From: Pontibaca methylaminivorans
GTDB taxonomy: Bacteria > Pseudomonadota > Alphaproteobacteria > Rhodobacterales > Rhodobacteraceae
Reading direction: 5' to 3'
DNA length: 64,000 bases
Assembly (NCBI RefSeq): GCF_900156525.1
Contig: NZ_FTPS01000001.1
Coordinates: 248,001-312,000 of the forward strand
Shown here piece after piece: positions 35,236 to 46,079 of the stretch (positions are counted from its first letter, which is position 1; every line of letters starts with the position of its first letter). The notes below the pieces were generated by a model, which saw only the letters and a list, made by a program, of their open reading frames with translations, was not told the origin of the DNA and searched no databases. The translations under genes were made by a program, and so were the position numbers.

Positions 35236-35311
35236 GCCCCTATAGCTCAGCTGGTAGAGCAACTGATTTGTAATCAGTAGGTCCGCGGTTCGAGTCCGTG
35301 TGGGGGCACCA
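35236..35311 (+). tRNA. tRNA-Thr (anticodon TGT)
   Basis: A full cloverleaf can be drawn. The acceptor stem is GCCCCTA / TGGGGGC and the D arm is GCTC...GAGC. The anticodon stem is ACTGA/TCAGT around loop TTTGTAA (anticodon TGT), and the T arm contains GGTTCGAGTCC. Discriminator A is followed by an encoded CCA. An integrase gene begins 135 bases downstream in the same direction, so the 3' end is the likely integration target. Confidence 0.96.
35280..35311 (+). other. Probable attachment site (attL) in the 3' end of tRNA-Thr
   Basis: Tyrosine integrases of this kind commonly target tRNA 3' ends, and the integrase lies immediately downstream. No second copy of the T-arm/acceptor sequence was seen between 35.3 and 43 kb, so the boundary is inferred from gene order and the opposite end is not located. 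Confidence 0.35.
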
Positions 35312-35445
35312 TACTTTCCCGAGAATATCGCATGTTCTGCCATTGTTTTCCCTTTGGTCTCGTTTTGGTCCAGCTTTGGAAGGTCGCGGGAGGATCGTGA
35401 CCCATTCTTTGCCAACCCAGATACGATGCGATTACTATCCTGGGC

Positions 35446-36474
35446 ATGGCGACGATTCTTAAGACGGCCCATGGTTGGCAGGCGCAGGTTGCGCGGCGCG
35501 TAGACGGCAAGACCATCCGCAAGGCGAAGACCTTCCGGACCAAGCGCGACGCTCAGGTATGGGCGCGTGAATTTGAGGTTGGCCTTGCCGCCGGAACCGC
35601 CAGCAGCGACACAATGCGTCAGGTCTTTGATCGTTACGCCCTCGAGCGATCCAAGGGCAAGAAAGGCGAACGCTGGGAAGTGATCCGGCTCAATCGGTTC
35701 GCTGCCGATCTGGTCAATGGTAAGCCTCTGGGAGAATACGTCATTGGCGACGTGACCACCGCCGATCTGGTTGCATGGCGCGACATGCGCCTGGGCCACG
35801 TCCTGCCCGCCAGCGTCTCGCGGGAAATGAACCTGCTCAAGCATGTCTTTGTCACCGCGACGAAGGAATGGGGCTTGCTGAAGATCAACCCGATGGAAGA
35901 GGTAAAACGCCCCCCGCGCGCCAAGCGCCGCAAGCGCCGCGTCTTTCAGAATGAAATCGACAAGCTGACCGAGGTGCTGGGCCTTGCCGCTCACCCGTGG
36001 GTCAGTGAGAAACAGATAACCGGCGCGATGTTCATTTTCGCCATCGAAACCGCCATGCGCTCCGGTGAAATTCGCGCCATCCAGAACCGGCACGTCACCG
36101 ATAACGTGATCCACCTGCCCGAGACAAAGAACGATCACGCCCGCGATGTTCCCTTGACCACACGGGCGCTGGAAATTCTCGAAAGCGTCCGGGGCAACAG
36201 GACCGAACCCGCTCAGCACCCATTCGAGATTGACGCGGAAAGCCGGGACAGCGTGTTTCGCGCCGCCGTGAAGCGGGCCAAAATCGAAAACCTGCATTTC
36301 CATGACACGCGGCATGAGGCCATCACCCGCTTGGCGAAGCGGTTGGAAATTCTCGATCTGGCGCGCATGACTGGGCATAAGAACCTGAATGAGCTGCTGA
36401 CCTACTATGAAGCGTCAGGTGTCGAACTGGCAGAGCGGCTCAACTCATCGACCTCCAAGGATGAAATCAAGTAA
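35446..36474 (+). CDS. int: Tyrosine-type site-specific integrase
   Basis: A 342-residue phage-type recombinase. An N-terminal arm-binding part (HGWQAQVARRVDGKTIRKAKTF) is followed by a SAM-like core-binding domain and the catalytic domain. The catalytic residues appear intact: Arg205 in ETAMRSGEIR, Lys228, HDTRH (His286, Arg289), TGHKN (His311) and the Tyr nucleophile at 320/321. Directly downstream of tRNA-Thr and in the same direction, it probably integrated there. Its last 70 bases overlap the convergent HTH gene. Confidence 0.92.
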   Translation: MATILKTAHGWQAQVARRVDGKTIRKAKTFRTKRDAQVWAREFEVGLAAGTASSDTMRQVFDRYALERSKGKKGERWEVIRLNRFAADLVNGKPLGEYVIGDVTTADLVAWRDMRLGHVLPASVSREMNLLKHVFVTATKEWGLLKINPMEEVKRPPRAKRRKRRVFQNEIDKLTEVLGLAAHPWVSEKQITGAMFIFAIETAMRSGEIRAIQNRHVTDNVIHLPETKNDHARDVPLTTRALEILESVRGNRTEPAQHPFEIDAESRDSVFRAAVKRAKIENLHFHDTRHEAITRLAKRLEILDLARMTGHKNLNELLTYYEASGVELAERLNSSTSKDEIK

Positions 36475-36680
36475 GGCGAACCATCACCGCCAGAAACGCG
36501 GGTGAACCTGCCGTCCTTAATCCAATTGCGAATTGTCTTTTCAGACTTGCCCAGGCGACCCGCGACAATTGCCACGGGCAACCACGCCTCGGGCCGCTTA
36601 GACGCGCCTAGGGCCTTGCTCACGGCGCGCTCAATGATCGTCTCAAGGTCGCCGGGGGATATGACGACAACTTGGCTCAT
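36405..36680 (-). CDS. Excisionase-like helix-turn-helix protein
   Basis: A 91-residue protein with a MerR/excisionase-type DNA-binding segment, VAGRLGKSEKTIRNWIKDGRF, near residues 39-59, followed by the wing-like YLISSLEVDEL. It is antisense to and overlaps the integrase 3' end by 70 bases. Its start overlaps the upstream unknown gene by ATGA. A recombination directionality factor or small regulator is the best guess. Confidence 0.72.
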   Translation of the reverse strand: MSQVVVISPGDLETIIERAVSKALGASKRPEAWLPVAIVAGRLGKSEKTIRNWIKDGRFTRVSGGDGSPYLISSLEVDELSRSASSTPDAS

Positions 36681-37336
36681 TCGCCCACACCATCCATCAG
36701 CGCCGTGAAGTATGCCGCCAGTGTTCTGATGCTAAATTCAGTGATTGACTTGCGATCAGCATTCATCGCGTCCTTGTATTCATCTATACGATCATCATTG
36801 ACGATATATTGCGCCTCCCAAAGCGGGCGTTGCGCCTGCATGATGGCGATACTTGCAAAAGTCGGATAGAGACGAACCTTTACATCCGCCGGCCCCATGC
36901 CCTGCGAAATTCGCTCGCGCCAAGAACATTCATCTTCATCCGAAAGTTGGCAATTGGGATCCATAATCCTCACAATCGACGTAAGAATTTCGGGAACACC
37001 AAGTATCAATTCCTCAAGGGCTTCCCCAAAGGTTTCTTTCTCCATGATGTCGCGCAGGACTTCGCAGCCCTCATGAAAATTGCCCTCGAACACGAAGGCT
37101 TGCAGTGTCCGCAGGTTCGCGACCGCTTTCGGCCCATCCTTGGGGGAAGCCGCGCCATAGGTTCCAAGCAGCAGATTGGCTGCATGTTCCAGACCTAAAT
37201 CGGGCGCGCCCCTGCCCCGCTTTCCAGCGGGAATGTATCCAGCCTCACGCAAGACGCGCCCGAATTGCAGCAACGTGCCATCGTCGCGACCGTCGAACGG
37301 TTGAATAAGTTCAAGCATCTTGGGGAGCGTTGCCAT
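36677..37336 (-). CDS. Unknown island protein coupled to the excisionase-like gene
   Basis: A 219-residue acidic soluble protein that I do not recognise. It opens with MATLPKMLELIQPFDGRDDG and contains AGYIPAGKRGRGAPDLGLEHAANLLLG, which recalls small phage regulators binding DNA or RNA, but no clear motif is present. The start at 37336 has GAGGTG eight bases upstream; a longer start exists at 37357. It overlaps the HTH gene by four bases, so the two work from one transcript. Base composition is lower in GC than the chromosome. Confidence 0.72.
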   Translation of the reverse strand: MATLPKMLELIQPFDGRDDGTLLQFGRVLREAGYIPAGKRGRGAPDLGLEHAANLLLGTYGAASPKDGPKAVANLRTLQAFVFEGNFHEGCEVLRDIMEKETFGEALEELILGVPEILTSIVRIMDPNCQLSDEDECSWRERISQGMGPADVKVRLYPTFASIAIMQAQRPLWEAQYIVNDDRIDEYKDAMNADRKSITEFSIRTLAAYFTALMDGVGE

Positions 37337-37440
37337 GTCGGACACCTCATTTATCAATTGTGTGTAGCGCCCGCAAAGCCCTGCGTCAAGCCATTGCGGG
37401 CATCACGCACAATTATTCAGTGAGGCAGTAAGCATGGCGG

Positions 37441-37773
37441 CTAGGAAACCAACGCCCGCGCCTCTTCCCAAATGATCGGGATATATGGGCTGTCATGCTC
37501 CAAGTCCCCCTCGCCGAACCCTGTCCAAGCCGTGATCTTGAGAAGCACATCGAGCGCGCTGCGGCTGGGTTCGCGGATCATGCGTTTTTCATTTTCCCAG
37601 CGAAGGTCGTGAAGCCGTTCATACTCATCACCCTCGGCAGCATGAGCGGCAGATTCCAGACGCTGCCACTCCCGGAACAGCTTCATGACGGGTGTTTCTG
37701 GCTCGGCGCTGGCTGGCAGCACCCCGCCGGCAGCAGCAGCTGGCGCGGCGGCGAGGAAGGTGCGGCGGTTCAT
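37441..37773 (-). CDS. Small exported protein of the island, Tat/Sec signal-like
   Basis: A 110-residue protein starting MNRRTFLAAAPAAAAGGVLPASA, a twin-arginine-like signal (NRRTFLA) with likely cleavage after ASA. The mature part is acidic and helical (REWQRLESAAHAAEGDEYERLHDLRWE). I recognise no family; similar small exported proteins occur in prophages of Rhodobacterales. Coupled by ATGA to the small gene upstream. Confidence 0.65.
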   Translation of the reverse strand: MNRRTFLAAAPAAAAGGVLPASAEPETPVMKLFREWQRLESAAHAAEGDEYERLHDLRWENEKRMIREPSRSALDVLLKITAWTGFGEGDLEHDSPYIPIIWEEARALVS

Positions 37774-37961
37774 GCTTCACCCCCGATCATCTTGCCCACA
37801 TTGCGCAGTGCCGATCGAACGTAGCTGCGGGCTTCGCGCTCGGATTGGGAATAGCCGGCCGGGTGCTCGGTCGCGTCCAGGGCGAGGGTCAGGCAGTCGT
37901 GGATTTCGAAGAGGCGAGCAATAGGCAAGCCGGTAATGGCTGCTGGAACAGGCTTCCGCAT
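37770..37961 (-). CDS. Small unknown island protein
   Basis: A 63-residue protein (MRKPVPAAITGLPIARLFEI...) without recognisable domains. It is mostly helical and may be a partner of the exported protein with which it overlaps by four bases. The start at 37961 lies next to the dyad in the divergent promoter of the XRE gene, so expression may be repressed by that protein. Confidence 0.6.
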   Translation of the reverse strand: MRKPVPAAITGLPIARLFEIHDCLTLALDATEHPAGYSQSEREARSYVRSALRNVGKMIGGEA

Positions 37962-37979
37962 GACAGACTCCGTTGTCAA

Positions 37980-38011
37980 GTATGTCGGTTCTGATTACAC
38001 TGAGAACATAC
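37980..38011. promoter_or_regulatory. Dyad operator in the divergent promoter of the XRE gene
   Basis: GTTCT-N10-AGAAC (37988-38007) is nested in GTATGT ... ACATAC (37980-37985, 38006-38011), centred about 30 bases before the XRE start. It sits midway between the leftward small-gene start (37961) and the XRE start (38028), as expected for a phage-type repressor operator. Confidence 0.5.
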
Positions 38012-38027
38012 ACTAGATATTGATACC

Positions 38028-38276
38028 ATGTCAACAGGCTTGCATACAGTGATAACACCAGAGCAATGTCGCATGGCCCGAGCGGCCCTAAGACTTGGCG
38101 TTCGTGACCTTGCTACAAGGTCTGGCGTGTCAAGTATGACTATCAGTAGATTCGAGAACGGCCATTCGGGAGGGCAAGCGGTGACTTTGCGCAAGATACA
38201 AGCTGCTCTCGAGGCCGCCGGCGTCGAATTCATCGCTGAGAACGGGAGCGGAGCTGGTGTAAGGTTGATAAAGTGA
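38028..38276 (+). CDS. XRE-family transcriptional regulator
   Basis: An 82-residue Cro/CI-type helix-turn-helix protein; RMARAALRLGVRDLATRSGV and SSMTISRFENGHSGGQAVTLRKIQAALEAAGVEFI form the five-helix domain. No Shine-Dalgarno sequence precedes the ATG, and a TAGATA hexamer lies at 38014-38019, nine to fourteen bases before it, so the mRNA may be leaderless as for lambda cI. The stop overlaps the following GTG start (GTGA). Confidence 0.85.
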   Translation: MSTGLHTVITPEQCRMARAALRLGVRDLATRSGVSSMTISRFENGHSGGQAVTLRKIQAALEAAGVEFIAENGSGAGVRLIK

Positions 38277-38821
38277 GTTTTGCCACTGACTGGAGCGCGC
38301 AAGACATCGCGTTAATTCTCACAACTCTCACGACTTCGGCGGCGGCTATCGCTGGGATAATATTACCGCTGTTAGGTGCAAGATCAAATCGACGGCATGA
38401 GAGAAACGTAAGAATTCATCAAGAGTTTCGCAGCGCGTTTAATGAAATGTTAGCGGAAGCGGACAAATACGCCCTAAGCTACCGGAACGGGTTGCTCAAC
38501 ACAAAGGTGTTAGAGGCCGCCACCAAACATGGAAGAGCGCCTCAACTAGCTGATACTTCAAGCAGATACGAAGTCGCAAGGTTAACATTTGTTGCCCTCG
38601 GAAGTAGCTATGGCATCAATTCGACAAAGCTATCAACTCTGGTTCATGCTAGGTTTAGTGCTGACTTTGAGTTCTGGCGGAATAAAATTATTGCGCATGA
38701 TAATGTTGCGGCCGATACCGCATTAAGGCTAGCGATTGATAATCAGGGAGAGCTTGACAAATCTATAGGTGAAGCCTGCGAAGTTATGTGGAGTTCTCTA
38801 CAACGGAAATTTCCATGTTGA
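38273..38821 (+). CDS. Unknown membrane-anchored island protein
   Basis: A 182-residue protein starting at GTG. One membrane helix spans about residues 13-35 (IALILTTLTTSAAAIAGIILPLL). A basic stretch (RSNRRHERNVRIHQEF) follows, then a soluble helical cytosolic part to the end. It is clearly more AT-rich than the rest of the window (ATTA, TAAG codons), a sign of transfer. Translation is coupled to the XRE regulator. Such regulator-membrane pairs in prophages can act in superinfection exclusion, but nothing in the sequence proves it. Confidence 0.72.
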   Translation: MSFATDWSAQDIALILTTLTTSAAAIAGIILPLLGARSNRRHERNVRIHQEFRSAFNEMLAEADKYALSYRNGLLNTKVLEAATKHGRAPQLADTSSRYEVARLTFVALGSSYGINSTKLSTLVHARFSADFEFWRNKIIAHDNVAADTALRLAIDNQGELDKSIGEACEVMWSSLQRKFPC

Positions 38822-38833
38822 TTAACAATTGCG

Positions 38834-38868
38834 GCCGGGGGCCGGCGCATCATCCCGGTGCCCCCGGC
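38834..38868. terminator. Hairpin between the convergent membrane protein and portal genes
   Basis: GCCGGGGGC and GCCCCCGGC pair over nine bases around a 17-base loop, 12 bases after the membrane-protein stop. There is no T-tract on either side, so its terminator role is uncertain. Confidence 0.4.
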
Positions 38869-39021
38869 TCTCATCCCCGCGCCAACCTGCGCCGCGCCTG
38901 CCATAAGGAGTGAACAGGCCGCGCCATGACGGGGTTTTCGGCATGACGGTCGCCGGGCACTCGCCGTCTAATCCCAGATGCTTTTGCGGGGGGCCGCGGG
39001 GCGCATCCTTGCCCTATTCGG

Positions 39022-40683
39022 TCAATCCTCCTGCCAGTCCACGAACGCGAGCGCGTCTTCCAGGGTCGCGCCGTCAAGCCCGGCTTCCTTGGCGGTGGCA
39101 TAGGCTTGCAGCATCGCGCCGAAGGCCCGTGCCTTGCCGCCGTGGTCGAAGGCTTGCATCGGCCGCACCACATCGAGGCTGACAGCCGCGCCCAGCTTGT
39201 CGGTCGCTTCCTCGGCGATCAGGCCGGCGATGGGTTGCAGAGTCAGCTGCGCAAGATGCCGCTGCGCCTCGCGCACCATCGGCCCCGTGGTCGCGGCGTT
39301 CATGAGCCCCGGCAGGATGCCGAACGCCGCCCAGACCGATCCGCGCGCGTCCGCAAGCAGCTTGTCGGCAAGGCTTTTGTCCAGGTGCGGCGACAGCTGG
39401 TCCGGGTGCTGCCCGATGTTCGGGTTCATGCCCGCCGCCGTCGCCTGCGCCACGCCCTCGATGACAAGGGTCGAACCGCGCCGGCCCCGGAAGGCATGGC
39501 GCATGTTTTCCATGTCATCGGCCGAGCCCTCGGGCAGCGGCACGATCAGGCTGCCGAGCGGTGCATCGCGGAACACGTCGCGCAATGCGGTTTCGATCTC
39601 GTGCAGGAACTGCGCCGACACCTGGTCGAGATCGGGCTTCAGTTCCAGCGTCTCACCCGCGAACCGGCCAAGCCATACCGACAGCGCCGCCGCCACCCGC
39701 GTCGCCAGCGGCACCACGGTCAGGCGGTAAAAGGCCCGGTTCGCTTCCTGGTAATTGGCATAGGTCGCATCGCCCTGGATGCCGATCAGCATCGGCGGCA
39801 CCCCGAAGGCGAGCGCGATCTCGCGCGCCGCCGCCTCCTTGGTCTTGTGAAACTCCATGTCGCTGGGCGAAAATCCCATCGGCTTCCAGTCGAGCCCGCC
39901 CTCCAGCACCATCGGCCGCCCCGCATTGCGCGCGCCTTGGTAATTCGCCGAAATCTCGTCCGACAACCGCTGGAACTGCTCCTCGCTCATGGCGTCGCCG
40001 CTCTCGCCGCCGCGGAACACCAGCGCACCGCTCGGCCGCGCGGCATTGTCGAGCAGCGCCTTCGACCAGCGGCTTGCGCTGTTGTGAACATCAAGCGCCA
40101 TGGCCGCCGCCTGCAGCGGCGAAAGCCCGTAGTGATCGTCCTGCGGATGAAATGCCTTGATGTGACAGATCGGTGAAACCGGACCGCCCGCATCGAAACG
40201 CACCTTGCGCGCGCCCACGGCATATTCATAGGCCGCAGGCCAGCCGTTGCTGCCGGGCACCACGCTCATGCGGTCCGAGCGCAGCACATGAAGCTCCGCG
40301 GGCACCACGTGATCGTCCCCGAAGACCGCCTCGACATAGGCATTGCCGGACAGCAGCAACTGCGCGAACAGCGCCTCCAGAAGCTCGGCCCGCCCCTGCC
40401 CCGGATTGGGCTGGCGCAGCAGCCCGAGCAGCGGATGCCGCTCATAACGGCGCTCGCAATCCTGCAGCACCAGCGGCAGCGCCGCCGCCGCCTCGGCGAT
40501 CAGCTTGACGGACCGGAACCCGACCGGATTGCCGGAAAATCCGCTCCGCGTCAGCGAAACCGTGTCGCGCGGGCTCCAGGCCACCCGGCCCGCGCCGGTA
40601 TAGGCGATCACCGGCCCGGTCGCGCTTGCCTTGGCATCGGGCGCGCTCTCATCGGCCCCGCGGCGCAGGAAATCGAATATCAT
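39022..40683 (-). CDS. Chimeric phage/GTA portal protein
   Basis: A 553-residue portal protein. Residues 1-355 resemble the HK97-type portal of the Rhodobacterales GTA (RVAWSPRDTVSLTRSGF, GNPVGFRSVKLIAEAAAALPL, FGVPPMLIG, ANYQEANRAFYRL). Known GTA portals have about 395 residues. The rest resembles the C-terminal half of another phage portal family (FRGRRGSTLVIEG, ATTGPMVREAQRHLAQ). The segment FG..P.L..., then REA..., occurs twice (293-318 and 454-477). GGGAG precedes the start at 40683; an ATG five codons earlier lacks a ribosome site. Probably not a functional portal. Confidence 0.8.
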   Translation of the reverse strand: MIFDFLRRGADESAPDAKASATGPVIAYTGAGRVAWSPRDTVSLTRSGFSGNPVGFRSVKLIAEAAAALPLVLQDCERRYERHPLLGLLRQPNPGQGRAELLEALFAQLLLSGNAYVEAVFGDDHVVPAELHVLRSDRMSVVPGSNGWPAAYEYAVGARKVRFDAGGPVSPICHIKAFHPQDDHYGLSPLQAAAMALDVHNSASRWSKALLDNAARPSGALVFRGGESGDAMSEEQFQRLSDEISANYQGARNAGRPMVLEGGLDWKPMGFSPSDMEFHKTKEAAAREIALAFGVPPMLIGIQGDATYANYQEANRAFYRLTVVPLATRVAAALSVWLGRFAGETLELKPDLDQVSAQFLHEIETALRDVFRDAPLGSLIVPLPEGSADDMENMRHAFRGRRGSTLVIEGVAQATAAGMNPNIGQHPDQLSPHLDKSLADKLLADARGSVWAAFGILPGLMNAATTGPMVREAQRHLAQLTLQPIAGLIAEEATDKLGAAVSLDVVRPMQAFDHGGKARAFGAMLQAYATAKEAGLDGATLEDALAFVDWQED

Positions 40684-40808
40684 CCCAATTGCTCCCATCT
40701 GTTCTGAGCGCGACCTTGCGAACGCGCCAACCGGCCCTTCGCGAACCGTTCTGACAGGTCTTTGCTAAGGCCGCGGAAAGCGACCGCACGCTGCCTGCGC
40801 AACGGGGC

Positions 40809-42179
40809 TCAAAGCATACGCAGACGCGGCCGCAGAATCCGGCGCGAGGGCGCGATGACGAGCTCATGCAGCGCCCAGACCAGCGCATCCACCCGGTCGG
40901 GAGAGCCCGGCCCCTCGTATCCGCGCGCGGTCATGAGGCACATCTGCTCTTCCAGCAGGTCAAGCCCCGCCACATGGCGCACCCGTCCCTGTTCATAAAG
41001 CGCCGCTACGGGTTCCGCCCGCGCGGCCTTGCCCCGGCTGGCCCTGACCGCCCGGAACGGCAGCAGCGGATCCACCTGCCGCAGCACCTCCTCGACCAGT
41101 TGCCCGCCCTGGTTCACCTCGGCCACGAGCCTTGCCGCACCGAAACGCTCCATCGCCGCGATCGCGGCCCGCGCCCAGCCGAGCGGCCCGACCCCCTGCA
41201 CCGTGCAATCGGCCAGCACATAGGCGCACCAGTCCTGCGGCGGCCCCTGCGTGCAGGCGCCGGCGACGATGATGCCGCACTCATCCGCCGCCGCCCCCGC
41301 GCTCACCGCCGGGTCAAGCGCAACGACGACACGGTCCAGATCCGGCACCGTCTCGACCCGCGCCTGCTCCAGCATCGCAGTGGTCCAGAGCGCCCCTTCC
41401 GCATCCGCAAGCAGCACCCCGTCAAGCTCCTGCCGCCCGAGCCGCGTGCCGGCATAACGCGCCCGCACCTCGGTCAGGAAGGATTGCGCCAGATTCGCCC
41501 GGTTCGCCTCGGTCGGCGCATGGGTCAGCACCGTCGAGGGCGCGGCCAGCAGCCGTTTCAACACGCCCACATTGCGCGGCGTGGTGGTCACACAGGCCCG
41601 CGGTCGCTCGCCCCGGCGCAGCGCGAACTGCAGCATGTCCCAGGTCGCCTCGCCCCGGCCCCATTTGGCCAGCTCGTCCGCCCAGGCGGCATCGAACTGC
41701 GGCCCCCGAAGGCCCTCGGGGTCATGTGCCGAATAGGCCTGCGCCTCGGCCCCGTTCGGCCAGACCAGCTTGCGCTCGCTCGCCTTCCAGATCGGGCGGC
41801 GATCGGGGGGCGAACAGGCGATGATGCCGCTCTCGCCCATCACCATCACGTCGCGCACCTGATCATAGGTCTCCCCGACCAGCGCCACCCGCCGCGCCCG
41901 GCCAGAATCGAGCGGCCGGGGCCCTTCCACCTCGGCCCGCACCCACTCCGCCCCGGCGCGGGTCTTGCCGGCACCGCGCCCGCCCATGACCACCCAGGCC
42001 CGCCAGTCGCCTTCGGGGGCGATCTGGTGCGGCAGCGCCCAGAACTCGAAAAGAAAAGGGAGGGCGCAATGCCCTCCCTCCCCGATCTCATCCAGAAACC
42101 TCTCCCGGATCGCAACAGGCGCGCAGGCGAGCCAGCCTGCACCCGATTTCAAACCGAGCCCGCTCAAGGTCGAGCGCAT
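40809..42179 (-). CDS. Terminase large subunit (GTA g2-like)
   Basis: A 456-residue packaging motor. Walker A is GGRGAGKT (66-73), the Walker B pair is Asp168-Glu169 in AAWADELAKW, the coupling motif is VTTTPR, and the nuclease half starts with VVVALDPAVS. The first 60 residues (FLFEFWALPHQIAPEGDWRAW) match the GTA-type terminase. All key residues are present, so it could still be active. The start is inside the g1-like gene, as in other GTA clusters; it has another frame beyond it that is not conserved. Upstream of a portal fragment. Confidence 0.88.
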   Translation of the reverse strand: MRSTLSGLGLKSGAGWLACAPVAIRERFLDEIGEGGHCALPFLFEFWALPHQIAPEGDWRAWVVMGGRGAGKTRAGAEWVRAEVEGPRPLDSGRARRVALVGETYDQVRDVMVMGESGIIACSPPDRRPIWKASERKLVWPNGAEAQAYSAHDPEGLRGPQFDAAWADELAKWGRGEATWDMLQFALRRGERPRACVTTTPRNVGVLKRLLAAPSTVLTHAPTEANRANLAQSFLTEVRARYAGTRLGRQELDGVLLADAEGALWTTAMLEQARVETVPDLDRVVVALDPAVSAGAAADECGIIVAGACTQGPPQDWCAYVLADCTVQGVGPLGWARAAIAAMERFGAARLVAEVNQGGQLVEEVLRQVDPLLPFRAVRASRGKAARAEPVAALYEQGRVRHVAGLDLLEEQMCLMTARGYEGPGSPDRVDALVWALHELVIAPSRRILRPRLRML

Positions 42180-42432
42180 AGCCCCCCTGCGCGATTCCCG
42201 CCTGCCTGTGCTGTTGCTCGACAAGGCTTGCCTCCACTTTCAGACAGGTGCGGATCAACGCTTCGAGCGCCGCCACCTGCCGGGTTCCATTGACGATATC
42301 CGCGTCTCCCCCCGCCCTGATCCGCCTGCTCAGATCTTCCGCCTGCCAGCGCAGATTGCGAACCGAATCCTCCAGCGACGCCAGCAGTTCCGCCGTGCGC
42401 CGGATTCGCTCCTCCGGGGTCAGTAAAGTCAT
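42088..42432 (-). CDS. GTA g1-like small protein (small terminase)
   Basis: A 114-residue basic helical protein, MTLLTPEERIRRTAELLASLEDSVRNLRWQ, with 92 bases overlapping the terminase gene. The size, the position just before TerL and the helical character match GTA gene g1, which supplies the small-terminase role. A long spacing of 176 bases to the mltG stop holds a terminator, so these genes have their own promoter region. Confidence 0.72.
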   Translation of the reverse strand: MTLLTPEERIRRTAELLASLEDSVRNLRWQAEDLSRRIRAGGDADIVNGTRQVAALEALIRTCLKVEASLVEQQHRQAGIAQGGYALDLERARFEIGCRLARLRACCDPGEVSG

Positions 42433-42469
42433 GTCTGCTCATGCCCTCATGCGAAAATTGCCCCCGCAC

Positions 42470-42513
42470 GAGAAAAATGAAAAACGGCCGGCGAACCTTG
42501 TCCGCGGCCGTTT
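42470..42513 (-). terminator. Rho-independent terminator after mltG
   Basis: AAACGGCCG / CGGCCGTTT pairs nine bases with a 14-base loop (42482-42513). Leftward it runs into TTTTTCATTTTTC. It ends the fab-mltG transcript and insulates the GTA remnant from it. Confidence 0.68.
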
Positions 42514-42608
42514 GCCACCTCTCCTAGCATGTCATGATCCTTACGCGGCAGCGCGCGAAAAGTCAAGCGAAAACGCAACCTTAAGCAGAGCGATGCGCAA
42601 CGCGGGCA

Positions 42609-43763
42609 TCATTCACCCGCGGATTCGGCCTCGATGCGGCGCCAGTTCGCGACGTTGCGGTTGTGCTCGTCAAGCGTCGCGGCAAAGCTGTGCCCGCCGG
42701 TCCCGTCGGCCACGAAGAACAGGTAATCGGTCTTTTCCGGCGCCACCGCGGCCTCGAGGCTGGCCACGCCGGGATTGGCGATCGGCGTCTCCGGCAGCCC
42801 CTCGATCACATAGGTGTTCCAGGGCGTCGCCTTGCGCAATTCGCTCTGGCGCAGCCCGCGCCCCAGCACGCCCTTGCCGTTCGTGATGCCATAGATCACC
42901 GTCGGGTCGGTCTGCAGCCGCATGCCGCGTTCCAGCCGGTTGACAAAGACGCTGGCCACCTGCCCGCGCTCCTGCGGCACCCCGGTCTCCTTTTCGATGA
43001 TCGAGGCCATGATCAGCATCTGGTCCGCCGAGTCATAGGGCAACCCCTCTTCCCGTCCCTCCCAGGCGGCGGCGATGCGCAACTCCTGCCGCTGCTGCAT
43101 CCGGTCCAGCAGCGCCGCGCGCTCCATGCCGGGGGCCGCATCATAGCTGTCGGGCGCGAGATGCCCTTCGGGCGGGAGTTCCCCGACCTCCCCCTCAAGG
43201 ATGTCGATGGCCTTCAGCGCCTCGACCACCTGCCAGTTGGTCACCCCTTCGGCCAGCGCGATACGATAGCGCGTGTCGGGCTGTTTCAGCTGCTCGGCAT
43301 ATTCCTCGGGCGCCTCGTCGCTGATGGTGTCGAACTCGACCAGTTCCACGAACCGGCCCTCGGCCGGATCAAGCTGGCGCACCCGGGTCTGGGTGTGGTT
43401 CACGCCGACGCGATAGATGATCTCGGTTCCGCAGGTGCTGGCGCCGCCGCGGGTGATCTCGTCCATGATCTCGTCCATGGAGGCCCCGGGGCGGATCAGG
43501 AAGCTGCCCGCCTTCAGCTTGTCGGCCTTCTCGGTATAGCCCGCGCCGATGCGAAAGATGCTCGGATGGCGCACCGCGCCCTGCTCGGCCAGATCGCGGC
43601 TCACCCGCGCGATATTCGCGCCGCGCTCCACCCGCAGGCAGATCGCCTCGGCCAGCGGTCCCTCGGTCGTATATTGCCGCTTGCCCCAGAGGATCACGCC
43701 CCCGATCGCCAGCAAAACGATGATGAGAAAGCTGACCATGTTCGAGGCGATGCTGCGCCACAT
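42609..43763 (-). CDS. mltG: Endolytic murein transglycosylase MltG
   Basis: Cuts nascent glycan strands at the inner membrane, releasing growing peptidoglycan. The 384-residue protein has one N-terminal membrane helix (about residues 10-26), then a LysM-like region, and the YceG catalytic domain. The catalytic Glu is in IIEKETGVPQERGQVASVFVNRL, with QTDPTVIYG and PETPIANPGVASLEAAV as further blocks. Its ATG shares one base with the fabF TAA stop (TAATG), so it is coupled to fatty-acid synthesis genes, a usual arrangement. Confidence 0.95.
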   Translation of the reverse strand: MWRSIASNMVSFLIIVLLAIGGVILWGKRQYTTEGPLAEAICLRVERGANIARVSRDLAEQGAVRHPSIFRIGAGYTEKADKLKAGSFLIRPGASMDEIMDEITRGGASTCGTEIIYRVGVNHTQTRVRQLDPAEGRFVELVEFDTISDEAPEEYAEQLKQPDTRYRIALAEGVTNWQVVEALKAIDILEGEVGELPPEGHLAPDSYDAAPGMERAALLDRMQQRQELRIAAAWEGREEGLPYDSADQMLIMASIIEKETGVPQERGQVASVFVNRLERGMRLQTDPTVIYGITNGKGVLGRGLRQSELRKATPWNTYVIEGLPETPIANPGVASLEAAVAPEKTDYLFFVADGTGGHSFAATLDEHNRNVANWRRIEAESAGE

Positions 43764-45022
43764 TATGCGGGCTTTCCGAACACGAGGCTCGCATTGGTGC
43801 CGCCAAAGCCGAACGAGTTGGACAGCGCGACATCAATCTTCCGCTCGCGCTTCGCATTCGCCGCCAGGTCGACCACGGTTTCCGCCGCCGGATTATCCAG
43901 GTTGATCGTCGGCGGCGCCACCTGGTCGCGCAGCGCAAGCACCGTAAAGATTGCCTCGATCGCGCCCGCCGCGCCAAGCAGATGCCCGGTCATCGACTTG
44001 GTCGAGGACATGGTGACATCCTTCGCCGCATCGCCCATCATCCGCTCCACCGCGCGAAGCTCGATCGTGTCGGCCATGGTGCTGGTGCCGTGGGCATTGA
44101 TATAGTCGATGGCCCCGGGTTCCAGCCCCGCATGCCCGAGCGCCGCGCGCATCGCCCGCTCGGCCCCGTCGCCGTCCTCGCTCGGTGCGGTGACGTGATA
44201 GGCATCGCCCGACAGGCCATAACCCAGAATTTCAGCATAGATCGTCGCGCCGCGCGCCTTGGCGTGTTCATATTCCTCCAGCACCACGACACCCGCACCC
44301 TCGCCCATCACGAATCCGTCGCGGTCCACATCGTAGGGGCGGCTCGCCGCCTGCGGATTGTCACCGAATTTCGTGCTGAGCGCCTTGCAGGCGTTGAACC
44401 CGGCGATGCCGATTTCCGAAATCGCCGCCTCTGCGCCACCCGCGACCATCACGTCGGCATCGCCATAGCGGATCAGCCGGCTTGCATCGCCGATGGCATG
44501 GGCGCCGGTCGAACAGGCCGTGACCACCGCATGGTTCGGCCCCTTGAAGCCATAGCGGATGCTGACCTGGCCCGAAATCAGGTTGATCAGCGCCCCGGGG
44601 ATGAAGAACGGCGAAACCCGGCGCGGACCCCGCTCCTTGAGCAGGATCGCCGTGTCGGCGATGGAGCCAAGCCCCCCGATCCCCGATCCGAGCATGACGC
44701 CGGTGCGCAGCCGGTCCTCTTCGGCCTCCGGGGTCCAGCGGGCATCCCGCACCGCCATGTCCGCAGCGGCGATCCCGTAAAGGATGAAATCCGCGATCTT
44801 GCGCTGGTCTTTGGGTTCGACCCAGTCATCGGCGTTGAAGCTGCCGTCGCTGCCGTCCCCGCGCGGAACCTCGCAGGCATAGGTCGTGGCCAGCCGGCTC
44901 GGATCGAACTGCCGGATGGTCCCGGCCCCGGAACGCCCTGCAAGAATTCCCTCCCAGCTGTGCTCGACCCCGGTGCCCAGGGGCGTCACCAGCCCCAGTC
45001 CCGTAACCACAACTCTTCGCAT
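43763..45022 (-). CDS. fabF: 3-oxoacyl-[ACP] synthase II
   Basis: Condenses malonyl-ACP with acyl-ACP in fatty-acid elongation. The catalytic Cys is in VVTACSTGAHAIGDA, the two His in NAHGTSTMAD and KSMTGHLLGAAGAIE. The 419 residues and GFGGTNASLVF ending are normal. The start is the ATG of MRRVVVTGLG; upstream open frame is not similar. Transcribed after acpP and a HisA-like gene, coupled to mltG. Confidence 0.97.
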   Translation of the reverse strand: MRRVVVTGLGLVTPLGTGVEHSWEGILAGRSGAGTIRQFDPSRLATTYACEVPRGDGSDGSFNADDWVEPKDQRKIADFILYGIAAADMAVRDARWTPEAEEDRLRTGVMLGSGIGGLGSIADTAILLKERGPRRVSPFFIPGALINLISGQVSIRYGFKGPNHAVVTACSTGAHAIGDASRLIRYGDADVMVAGGAEAAISEIGIAGFNACKALSTKFGDNPQAASRPYDVDRDGFVMGEGAGVVVLEEYEHAKARGATIYAEILGYGLSGDAYHVTAPSEDGDGAERAMRAALGHAGLEPGAIDYINAHGTSTMADTIELRAVERMMGDAAKDVTMSSTKSMTGHLLGAAGAIEAIFTVLALRDQVAPPTINLDNPAAETVVDLAANAKRERKIDVALSNSFGFGGTNASLVFGKPA

Positions 45023-45155
45023 CCGCCGCCCTCTCGATTGTTCTTCCTGGCATGCCCGCTCATCAGACGCTCTTAGCCTGCGGGGGGGCAAAGGGGCAAG
45101 AGCGAGCATGGCACGGATGCGTCACCGGTCGTTCCGGCAGGGCTCCTGGCGGGAG

Positions 45156-45899
45156 CTACTGAAGCGCCGCGGTCGGCTCTGCCGAGGGCTGGGCCACCGA
45201 AAGCGCAAGCGGCAGATCGACCGTCCGCTGCAGCAGCGCGCGGCCGATGATCGCGCCGGCGATATTCGGATCGTGGGCAAGCCGCGCCACATCGTCGATA
45301 TGCCGCACCACGCCGCTTGCAATCACCGGCGCGCGCGCCCCGGCCGCGAGCCCCGAAATCAGCCCGAGCGTCGCGTCGATCTCGCCCACATCGCTGTCGA
45401 TGTCGGTCACGAGGATCCCGGCAAGCGGCAGGTCGTCGAAACTGCTGATGAACTGATCGGGCGGAAAGGCGCTTTGCTGGCGCCAGCCGTTGATCATGAC
45501 CTGGCCCTCGCGCACATCCACGGCCAGCACGACCTGATCGGGAAGGAACTTCACCAGGTCGCGCACCATTTGCGGCTCCCAGACCGGCCAGCTGCCCAGC
45601 ACGACCCGCCCGACGCCGCGCTCCAGCCAGTAATCGACGCTTTCGCGGCTGCGGATCCCGCCGCCAAGCTGCACCGGGATGCCGGCGACGCGGATGATCT
45701 CCTCGATCAACTCGGCATTGTTGCCCTCGCCCGCCGCGCCGTCGAGATCGGTCACATGCATCCATTCGGCCCCGGCGCGCGCAAAGCTCGCGGCAAGCTC
45801 CAGCGGATCGTCGTCATGAATGACCGGATCCCTCAGATCCCCCTTTGGCAGCAGCGCGCAGCGGCCCTTGTGCAGCTGGAGGGTTGGATAGAGTCTCAT
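45156..45899 (-). CDS. HisA-like TIM-barrel protein with altered active site
   Basis: A 247-residue beta-alpha barrel related to HisA, the ProFAR isomerase. The scaffold is clear: LHVTDLDGA-like EWMHVTDLDGAAGEGNN, IPVQLGGGIRSRESV, VVLAVDVREGQV and IIGRALL. But the catalytic Asp8 of the HisA motif PAIDLxxG is Gln8 in PTLQLHKG, and the second phosphate motif reads ASGVV instead of a double glycine. The second catalytic Asp (VDVREG) is kept. It lies between acpP and fabF, away from his genes, so it likely has another substrate. Confidence 0.8.
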   Translation of the reverse strand: MRLYPTLQLHKGRCALLPKGDLRDPVIHDDDPLELAASFARAGAEWMHVTDLDGAAGEGNNAELIEEIIRVAGIPVQLGGGIRSRESVDYWLERGVGRVVLGSWPVWEPQMVRDLVKFLPDQVVLAVDVREGQVMINGWRQQSAFPPDQFISSFDDLPLAGILVTDIDSDVGEIDATLGLISGLAAGARAPVIASGVVRHIDDVARLAHDPNIAGAIIGRALLQRTVDLPLALSVAQPSAEPTAALQ

Positions 45900-46079
45900 C
45901 GGTCTGCTCCTGATCATTGCCGGTCGGCCGAAGTCTAGCATGCGCCGCAGCAATATCCCACCGGCTTCCGGTTTCAGCACCGGAAGCGTCGGTTTCAGAA
46001 CAGAAATATTGGCCCGTTACGGCAGCCCTCTGATTCGGACACGGATCATATCCGCCGCCCGGCAGGGGTGCCGTGAAAT

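Follow-up and report, generated by a model that had tools for sequence, protein, structure and literature searches.

A portal gene of Pontibaca methylaminivorans composed of gene transfer agent and satellite portal sequences

Introduction

Two described systems come closest to the locus studied here. The first is the gene transfer agent (GTA) of R. capsulatus (RcGTA), whose portal protein Rcc01684, the product of g3, has been solved at 393-396 residues across PDB entries 6tba, 6te8 and 6toa. In the available part of PMC9836097, GTA genes are described as particularly well conserved in Rhodobacterales, and the excerpt of PMC8224337 at hand places cysE on the flank of the GTA in this order. The second is the capsid-forming PICI (cf-PICI), a satellite whose components are listed in the accessible section of PMC10690885; the part of PMC13230959 that we consulted describes an element from Vibrio that contains these components too.

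To our knowledge, genomes rarely reveal the way in which a GTA is lost. Here we analyze a window of 64,000 nucleotides from Pontibaca methylaminivorans (positions 248,001 to 312,000 of contig NZ_FTPS01000001.1, called C1 below; bare coordinates are those of the window). It contains a portal gene whose N-terminal part comes from a GTA and whose C-terminal part comes from a small satellite. We consider it very likely that the gene is a genuine chimera confined to this lineage, produced when a rearrangement joined GTA g3 to a satellite portal and thereby ended both elements locally.

Results

The chimeric portal gene occupies 39022..40683 on the minus strand and reads without a stop from 40683 to 39022, giving 553 codons, or 558 if translation starts at an ATG at 40698, five codons upstream in frame. 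A preliminary description of this DNA had reported the same frame without its strand, together with two sets of portal motifs, and retranslation placed both sets exactly where they had been reported: FGVPPML at residues 293-299, QEANRAF at 312-318 and ELKPDLDQV at 347-355, then FGILPGL at 454-460 and REAQRHL at 471-477. It had also considered 553 residues too long for a GTA g3, which agrees with the solved GTA portal, a protein of 396 residues that matches fusion residues 5-359 only. When the gene is held against the definition of g3 (HK97-type, ~395 residues, near Rcc01684), its N-terminal 355 residues fit, whereas its length and C-terminus do not. The Pfam Phage_portal match covers residues 54-355 only, and beyond residue 371 no match was found in Pfam, PHROGs or NCBIfam.

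Residues 1-355 (39619..40683, minus strand) represent g3 without its last ~40 residues, as judged by identity to GTA portals and by comparison with 6tba and 6te8. Fusion residues 1-357 are 85% identical to the portal of Pontibaca salina (L034) and 83% identical to that of L035 (among the best 80 of 184 relatives), and a search of 61 whole genomes gave 84% and 83% identity between the GTA half and two congeners, G001 (taken as P. salina) and G002. Residues 5-363 of the RcGTA portal align to fusion residues 5-359. As in RcGTA, the terminase precedes the portal. The GTA large terminase g2 (TerL; 40809..42224, minus strand; Pfam Terminase_6N and Terminase_6C) has an intact frame with an uncertain start codon. 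A small ORF (42088..42432, minus strand) is assigned to g1 by position only; tblastn matches covering more than 80% of it occur in 24 of 80 relatives' loci. Unlike RcGTA g3, the fusion ends in 198 residues of a satellite portal and has no GTA genes after it.

The GTA clusters of both congeners are collinear with window positions 39612-45904 at 77-79% DNA identity, the comparison with G002 covering the flanks only. G001 has an intact portal of 396 residues, after which come genes for protease, capsid, head-tail adaptor, major tail protein, tape measure, a glycoside hydrolase and tail assembly. In P. methylaminivorans, by contrast, the g1-g15 cluster expected around a GTA portal is reduced to the terminase and the ORF at the g1 position, both upstream of the fusion.

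Residues 356-553 (39022..39618, minus strand) come from the C-terminal half of a satellite portal. From about residue 354-356 to residue 553, the fusion is 90% identical to residues 159-358 of P0002, a complete 358-residue HK97-type portal (359-codon frame; L114:10995-12071) encoded in the same genome, so the second half does derive from a separate portal family, as had been proposed. P0002 belongs to an element (L114:5292-15653, at ~1.579-1.590 Mb of C1) that carries genes for an adaptor, TerL, HNH nuclease, capsid, protease, portal and an integrase adjoining tRNA-Cys. An exact 47-bp repeat of the 3' part of the tRNA marks both ends of the element, which spans 10,315 bases. The donor, earlier thought to be a prophage, is a capsid-forming phage satellite and not a prophage with a full gene set.

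The P0002 portal had no match among 50,697 phage records at E 1e-5 and no sequence match in the PDB up to E 1. Its predicted structure resembles portals of known structure, among them that of the R. capsulatus GTA (6tba; Foldseek E 4.6e-6), with a VIA-align Z of 14.2 and an rmsd of 3.8 over 221 aligned residues. In the structure alignment, satellite-portal residues 45-357 lie against residues 55-391 of the GTA portal. The model covered the satellite portal alone rather than the whole 553-residue chain, and it is of moderate confidence (mean pLDDT 70, with values below 50 at residues 1-5, 7-39, 177-189, 207-243 and 356-358).

The junction lies at residues 354-358 (39610..39624, minus strand), where we compared nine bases, TGTCGGCGC, between the fusion and its parents. 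The satellite is identical to the fusion over this stretch and the G001 GTA shares 8/9 bases; the G002 GTA shares only 7/9, a point against the explanation that we favor. Codon 355 is GTG, as in the GTA, and satellite codon 161 onward comes next. Separate alignment of the halves agrees with the proposal that two portals of different origin were joined in frame near residue 355. By profile alignment, the joint is out of register, because GTA residue ~355 leads into satellite residue ~160, the equivalent of about GTA residue 200. Consequently, the region equal to about GTA 200-347, roughly 150 residues of the portal core, occurs twice, and this accounts for the segment that had been seen twice. 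Joining at non-corresponding positions with few common bases is not what an ordinary crossover at equivalent portal positions would give. The recombination suggested in the preliminary description therefore holds in that two elements were joined, but the joining was no ordinary crossover and it took place within a chromosomal rearrangement.

The duplication of the core is only moderately evident in a plain pairwise test within the fusion, in which the repeat scored 57, whereas shuffled sequences averaged 34.8 (sd 5.3) and 1 of 500 reached the score of the repeat. In a profile-profile comparison, GTA columns 144-347 fell onto satellite-portal columns 110-309 (E 8.7e-5, although with a probability of only 59.9). 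This alignment and the structural match of the satellite portal back the view that a core portal segment is present twice. The repeated core also explains why MAFFT, given both parent families in one alignment, aligned the GTA sequences to the satellite half of the fusion.

Beyond the joint lies the integrase side of a satellite, which extends from the 3' end of tRNA-Thr to the junction (35312..39618) and is recognized by its DNA match to the tRNA-Cys satellite (L114). Window positions 38874-39620 and 37435-37907 are 87% and 86% identical to that element. The tRNA-Thr(TGT) itself (35236..35311, plus strand) is the presumed attachment site. It is followed by a tyrosine integrase (35446..36474, plus strand; Pfam Phage_integrase, phrog_1) and by an excisionase-like HTH protein (36405..36680, minus strand; phrog_66 at E 2.7e-5, HTH_17 below the Pfam cut-off). 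Next come a 110-residue protein (37441..37773, minus strand) with 93% identity to L114:13350-13679 and a 69-residue protein (37770..37979, minus strand) that matches L114 and was recovered from 9 of the 50 satellite loci, a set in which some loci overlap. An HTH regulator (38028..38276, plus strand) is convergent with the portal, and its homologues stand right behind the portal in the same convergent arrangement in L230, L238, L229 and other satellites. A tblastn search of the 50 satellite loci with the remnant integrase returned no match at E 1e-4. The remnant element thus had a different integrase from those, which also weighs against the favored explanation.

What is left beside tRNA-Thr is an integrase, regulators and half a portal, rather than a full set of head genes between two att sites. 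A genome-wide search for the final 25 bases of tRNA-Thr, allowing up to two mismatches, found a single copy, and the satellite TerL likewise occurs once, within the tRNA-Cys copy. These single occurrences indicate that the far half and the att site of the tRNA-Thr satellite have been lost. No orphan N-terminal half of a satellite portal was found, the genome having just three Phage_portal matches.

These data also bear on whether the fusion could be an artefact in which contig ends were misjoined inside portal genes. The assembly is a draft of eight contigs, the joint is known from the assembled sequence only, and a few bases are common to the parents at that point. Still, the parental portal DNAs are unlike each other at the joint, and the fusion lies inside a contig of 2.34 Mb. 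Moreover, the tRNA-Thr side forms a coherent satellite remnant, and the satellite DNA flanking the joint differs by 13% from the tRNA-Cys copy, so that a collapse of that copy does not explain it. We regard a misassembly as highly improbable.

GTA genes downstream of g3 were not recovered from the source genome. A 9.6 kb DNA query from G001, running from the end of g3 onward and including the protease, capsid, adaptor and tail genes, matched nothing there except 98 bp at the end of the portal part and a 239-bp stretch belonging to another phage relic. TIGR02217, which we take to be a GTA tail-gene family, had no match in the genome. A candidate for a second GTA remnant at C1:14937-17907 (L115) was rejected: its capsid is only 43% identical to GTA g5, a further gene reaches 29%, and its portal stretch carries two TAG stops. 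We take it to be a relic of another HK97-type phage. DUF2793, presumably a GTA spike or tail-fibre domain, occurs in no protein of the source genome, compared with one in G001 and three in G002; GTA accessory genes outside the cluster may also have been lost from this genome.

The DNA on the two sides of the GTA is now separated. GTA-upstream DNA lies at C1:287612-302238 and the cysE side at C1:350655-359189. Their relative orientation is that seen in the congeners, but about 50 kb now lie between them. In both congeners, tRNA-Thr is adjoined by a stretch matching an operon at C1:360.5-363.1 kb, which encodes an ATPase with a TOBE domain, a permease and a solute-binding protein and which we read as a molybdate-type ABC transporter operon, modABC. 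In the source genome, by contrast, 1.4 kb containing an alpha/beta hydrolase gene separate this operon from cysE, which encodes serine acetyltransferase (L148:9344-14131, equal to C1 358344-363131). The swapped neighborhoods indicate that the GTA and tRNA-Thr regions were both opened and that their displaced partners now adjoin each other. The observed order would follow either from circle-like insertion of the segment that bears the GTA or from two inversions. The genomes of the genus are highly rearranged; this general scrambling prevents a choice between the two and lends some uncertainty to the meaning of the new neighborhoods.

A simpler course would be a local deletion between a satellite and a GTA that lay side by side, which is a variant of the favored explanation and not exclusive of it. 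The two halves have the same orientation, and such a deletion would remove just those genes that are missing from both elements. Two observations led us to drop it as the simplest model in the form of a sole event: tRNA-Thr and the GTA lie on separate contigs in both congeners (more than 100 kb apart in G002, judged by contig ends), and the cysE side of the GTA survives elsewhere in the source genome. We consider a simple local deletion unlikely, and a deletion that followed an earlier rearrangement possible.

Neither half of the fusion nor the neighboring terminase shows decay in conserved-site and dN/dS tests. Conserved sites were scored over rows with at least 80% coverage from 80 loci plus the source, giving 81 rows for the portal, 77 for TerL, 25 for g1, 55 for mltG and 50 for fabF, the source included. 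At sites at least 97% conserved, the GTA half has 2/152 violations (rank 16 of 81 sequences) and TerL 1/157 (rank 21 of 77), both inside the range of the other loci. The satellite half has 0/53 departures at sites at least 95% conserved (44 rows). In the same genome, fabF has five violations (rank 3 of 50) and mltG three (rank 4 of 55), ranks that point to a lineage that is fast in general.

Substitution rates give a similar picture. On the source branch, dN and dS are 0.074 and 0.32 for the portal part and 0.073 and 0.44 for TerL, which resemble the values for the genes next door, 0.119 and 0.47 for mltG and 0.064 and 0.50 for fabF. For hisA, they are 0.222 and 0.73, with dS estimates that are saturated. 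Between the satellite half and the donor copy P0002, dS is 0.311 and dN is 0.065. The lack of decay means either that the fusion is young or that its frames are still constrained. It is unlike what an old dead relic would show and to that extent counts against the favored explanation.

One reading of this constraint is that selection maintains the fusion and g1-g2 because they have taken on a new role; the fusion might, for instance, be a decoy portal subunit that would spoil the assembly of satellite or phage heads. The open frame of 553 codons, the scarcity of conserved-site violations in the GTA half and TerL and their absence from the satellite half, and branch rates like those of mltG and fabF would all fit. 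So would the absence of DUF2793, which suggests that the loss of the GTA may not be very recent and stands in tension with a young fusion. However, DUF2793 is not confined to GTAs, and a recent event accounts for the same sequence data, since recent fusion and selection give the same outcome in the decay tests. Among the matches listed for the 394 family genomes, the fusion appeared in no second genome. We therefore consider retention by selection very unlikely; a new function of the fusion is possible but unsupported. The slimmest chance that we assign is to a more specific version, in which the fusion and the GTA terminase genes would have been recruited as a host protein acting against satellite or phage packaging or assembly. 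If this were true, a satellite would have turned a gene transfer agent into a defense gene.

The preliminary description had named the recurrence of the same long portal in many genomes as the finding that would speak against a fusion. No such recurrence was seen in the 61 whole genomes, among the best 80 of 184 relatives or in the 394 family genomes. In the 61-genome search, nothing but the fusion itself matched across both halves, and two matches read through a TGA stop as far as residues 392 and 397. Among the matches listed in the portal search and in the satellite-portal search of the 394 family genomes, there was no second fusion of a GTA with a satellite; up to three and up to five candidates per genome were scored, respectively, so a diverged fusion could be missed. 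Two long stop-to-stop frames were set aside. That of G345 (550 codons) is on checking an ordinary portal of 380 residues, and the match in G142 (502 codons) begins at residue 1 of the satellite portal.

The family from which the donor comes resembles the cf-PICIs. Like them, its members have their own capsid, protease, portal and head-tail connectors (L114, L121 and L248), large terminase and HNH endonuclease (L114 and L121), an identified integrase (L114 and L121) and tRNA attachment sites. A head closure protein was found in L121 and L248. Direct repeats at a specific tRNA were present in three of three loci tested (L120, L122 and L123 lay outside this test), and in the two other than the tRNA-Cys element the exact repeats are 51 and 52 bp long, at tRNA-Lys and tRNA-Asn, with spans of 10,158 and 10,427 bases. 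In the scanned ORFs of L114, L121, L248 and L252, a set that held some but not all of the small ORFs, neither a tail gene nor a lysis gene was recognized.

There are differences as well. At about 10.2-10.4 kb, these satellites are smaller than the cf-PICI average of 14 kb, and they occur in Rhodobacteraceae, outside the taxa named in the available part of PMC10803314. No small terminase was recognized, the candidate ORFs scanned before the satellite TerL giving no match to a terminase small subunit, and the gene order is TerL-HNH-capsid-protease-portal. Their gene content fits cf-PICI-like capsid-forming satellites, with helper dependence and tail use being putative. Relatives of P0002 are present in 49 of the 394 family genomes, and near-full-length ones with at least 52% identity in 36 by row count, the source genome included. 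They also occur in 14 IMG/VR contigs of 8.6-12.4 kb. We noted L114, L121, L124 and L246-L259 as members of the family.

Discussion

Our best reading of this locus is a young scar that ended two elements at once. A capsid-forming satellite of ~10 kb would have been integrated at tRNA-Thr beforehand, as the remnant there suggests. A chromosomal rearrangement would then have joined a break in GTA g3 at codon ~355 to a break in the satellite portal at codon ~160, with a few common bases perhaps mediating the joining and the frame being kept by chance. The later GTA genes would have been lost on the far side of the joint, and the terminase, capsid, protease, N-terminal half of the portal and distal att site of this satellite copy would likewise have been lost beyond it. 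This would leave GTA g1-g2 and the 553-residue fusion, followed by the satellite regulators and integrase, a locus from which neither particle could be built.

Most likely, the fusion protein would not function as a portal, because the searches recovered no GTA capsid gene for it and because a portal ring would probably not accommodate a core present twice. The preliminary description had gone further in holding that the recombination killed the GTA. The genes after g3 are indeed not found, but the fusion event as the cause is our inference, and they could possibly have been lost earlier.

In this chromosome a GTA and a satellite equipped with head genes of its own have met, and the fusion draws attention to a family of capsid-forming satellites of ~10 kb that is common in Rhodobacteraceae but has been little described. 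Our search of the open-licence literature found no description of this satellite family or of a GTA-satellite fusion, and the available parts of PMC11389934 and PMC9836097 contain nothing on GTA loss or on such a family.

As a scar of GTA loss, the locus still displays the two portal sequences together with their joint and the flanks that were rearranged. In the portal search, 67 of the 394 family genomes gave no portal match. In one relative, Shimia sp. SK013 (L049), an in-frame stop interrupts the sequence that tblastn aligned to the GTA large terminase; the GTA of that strain may possibly be decaying.
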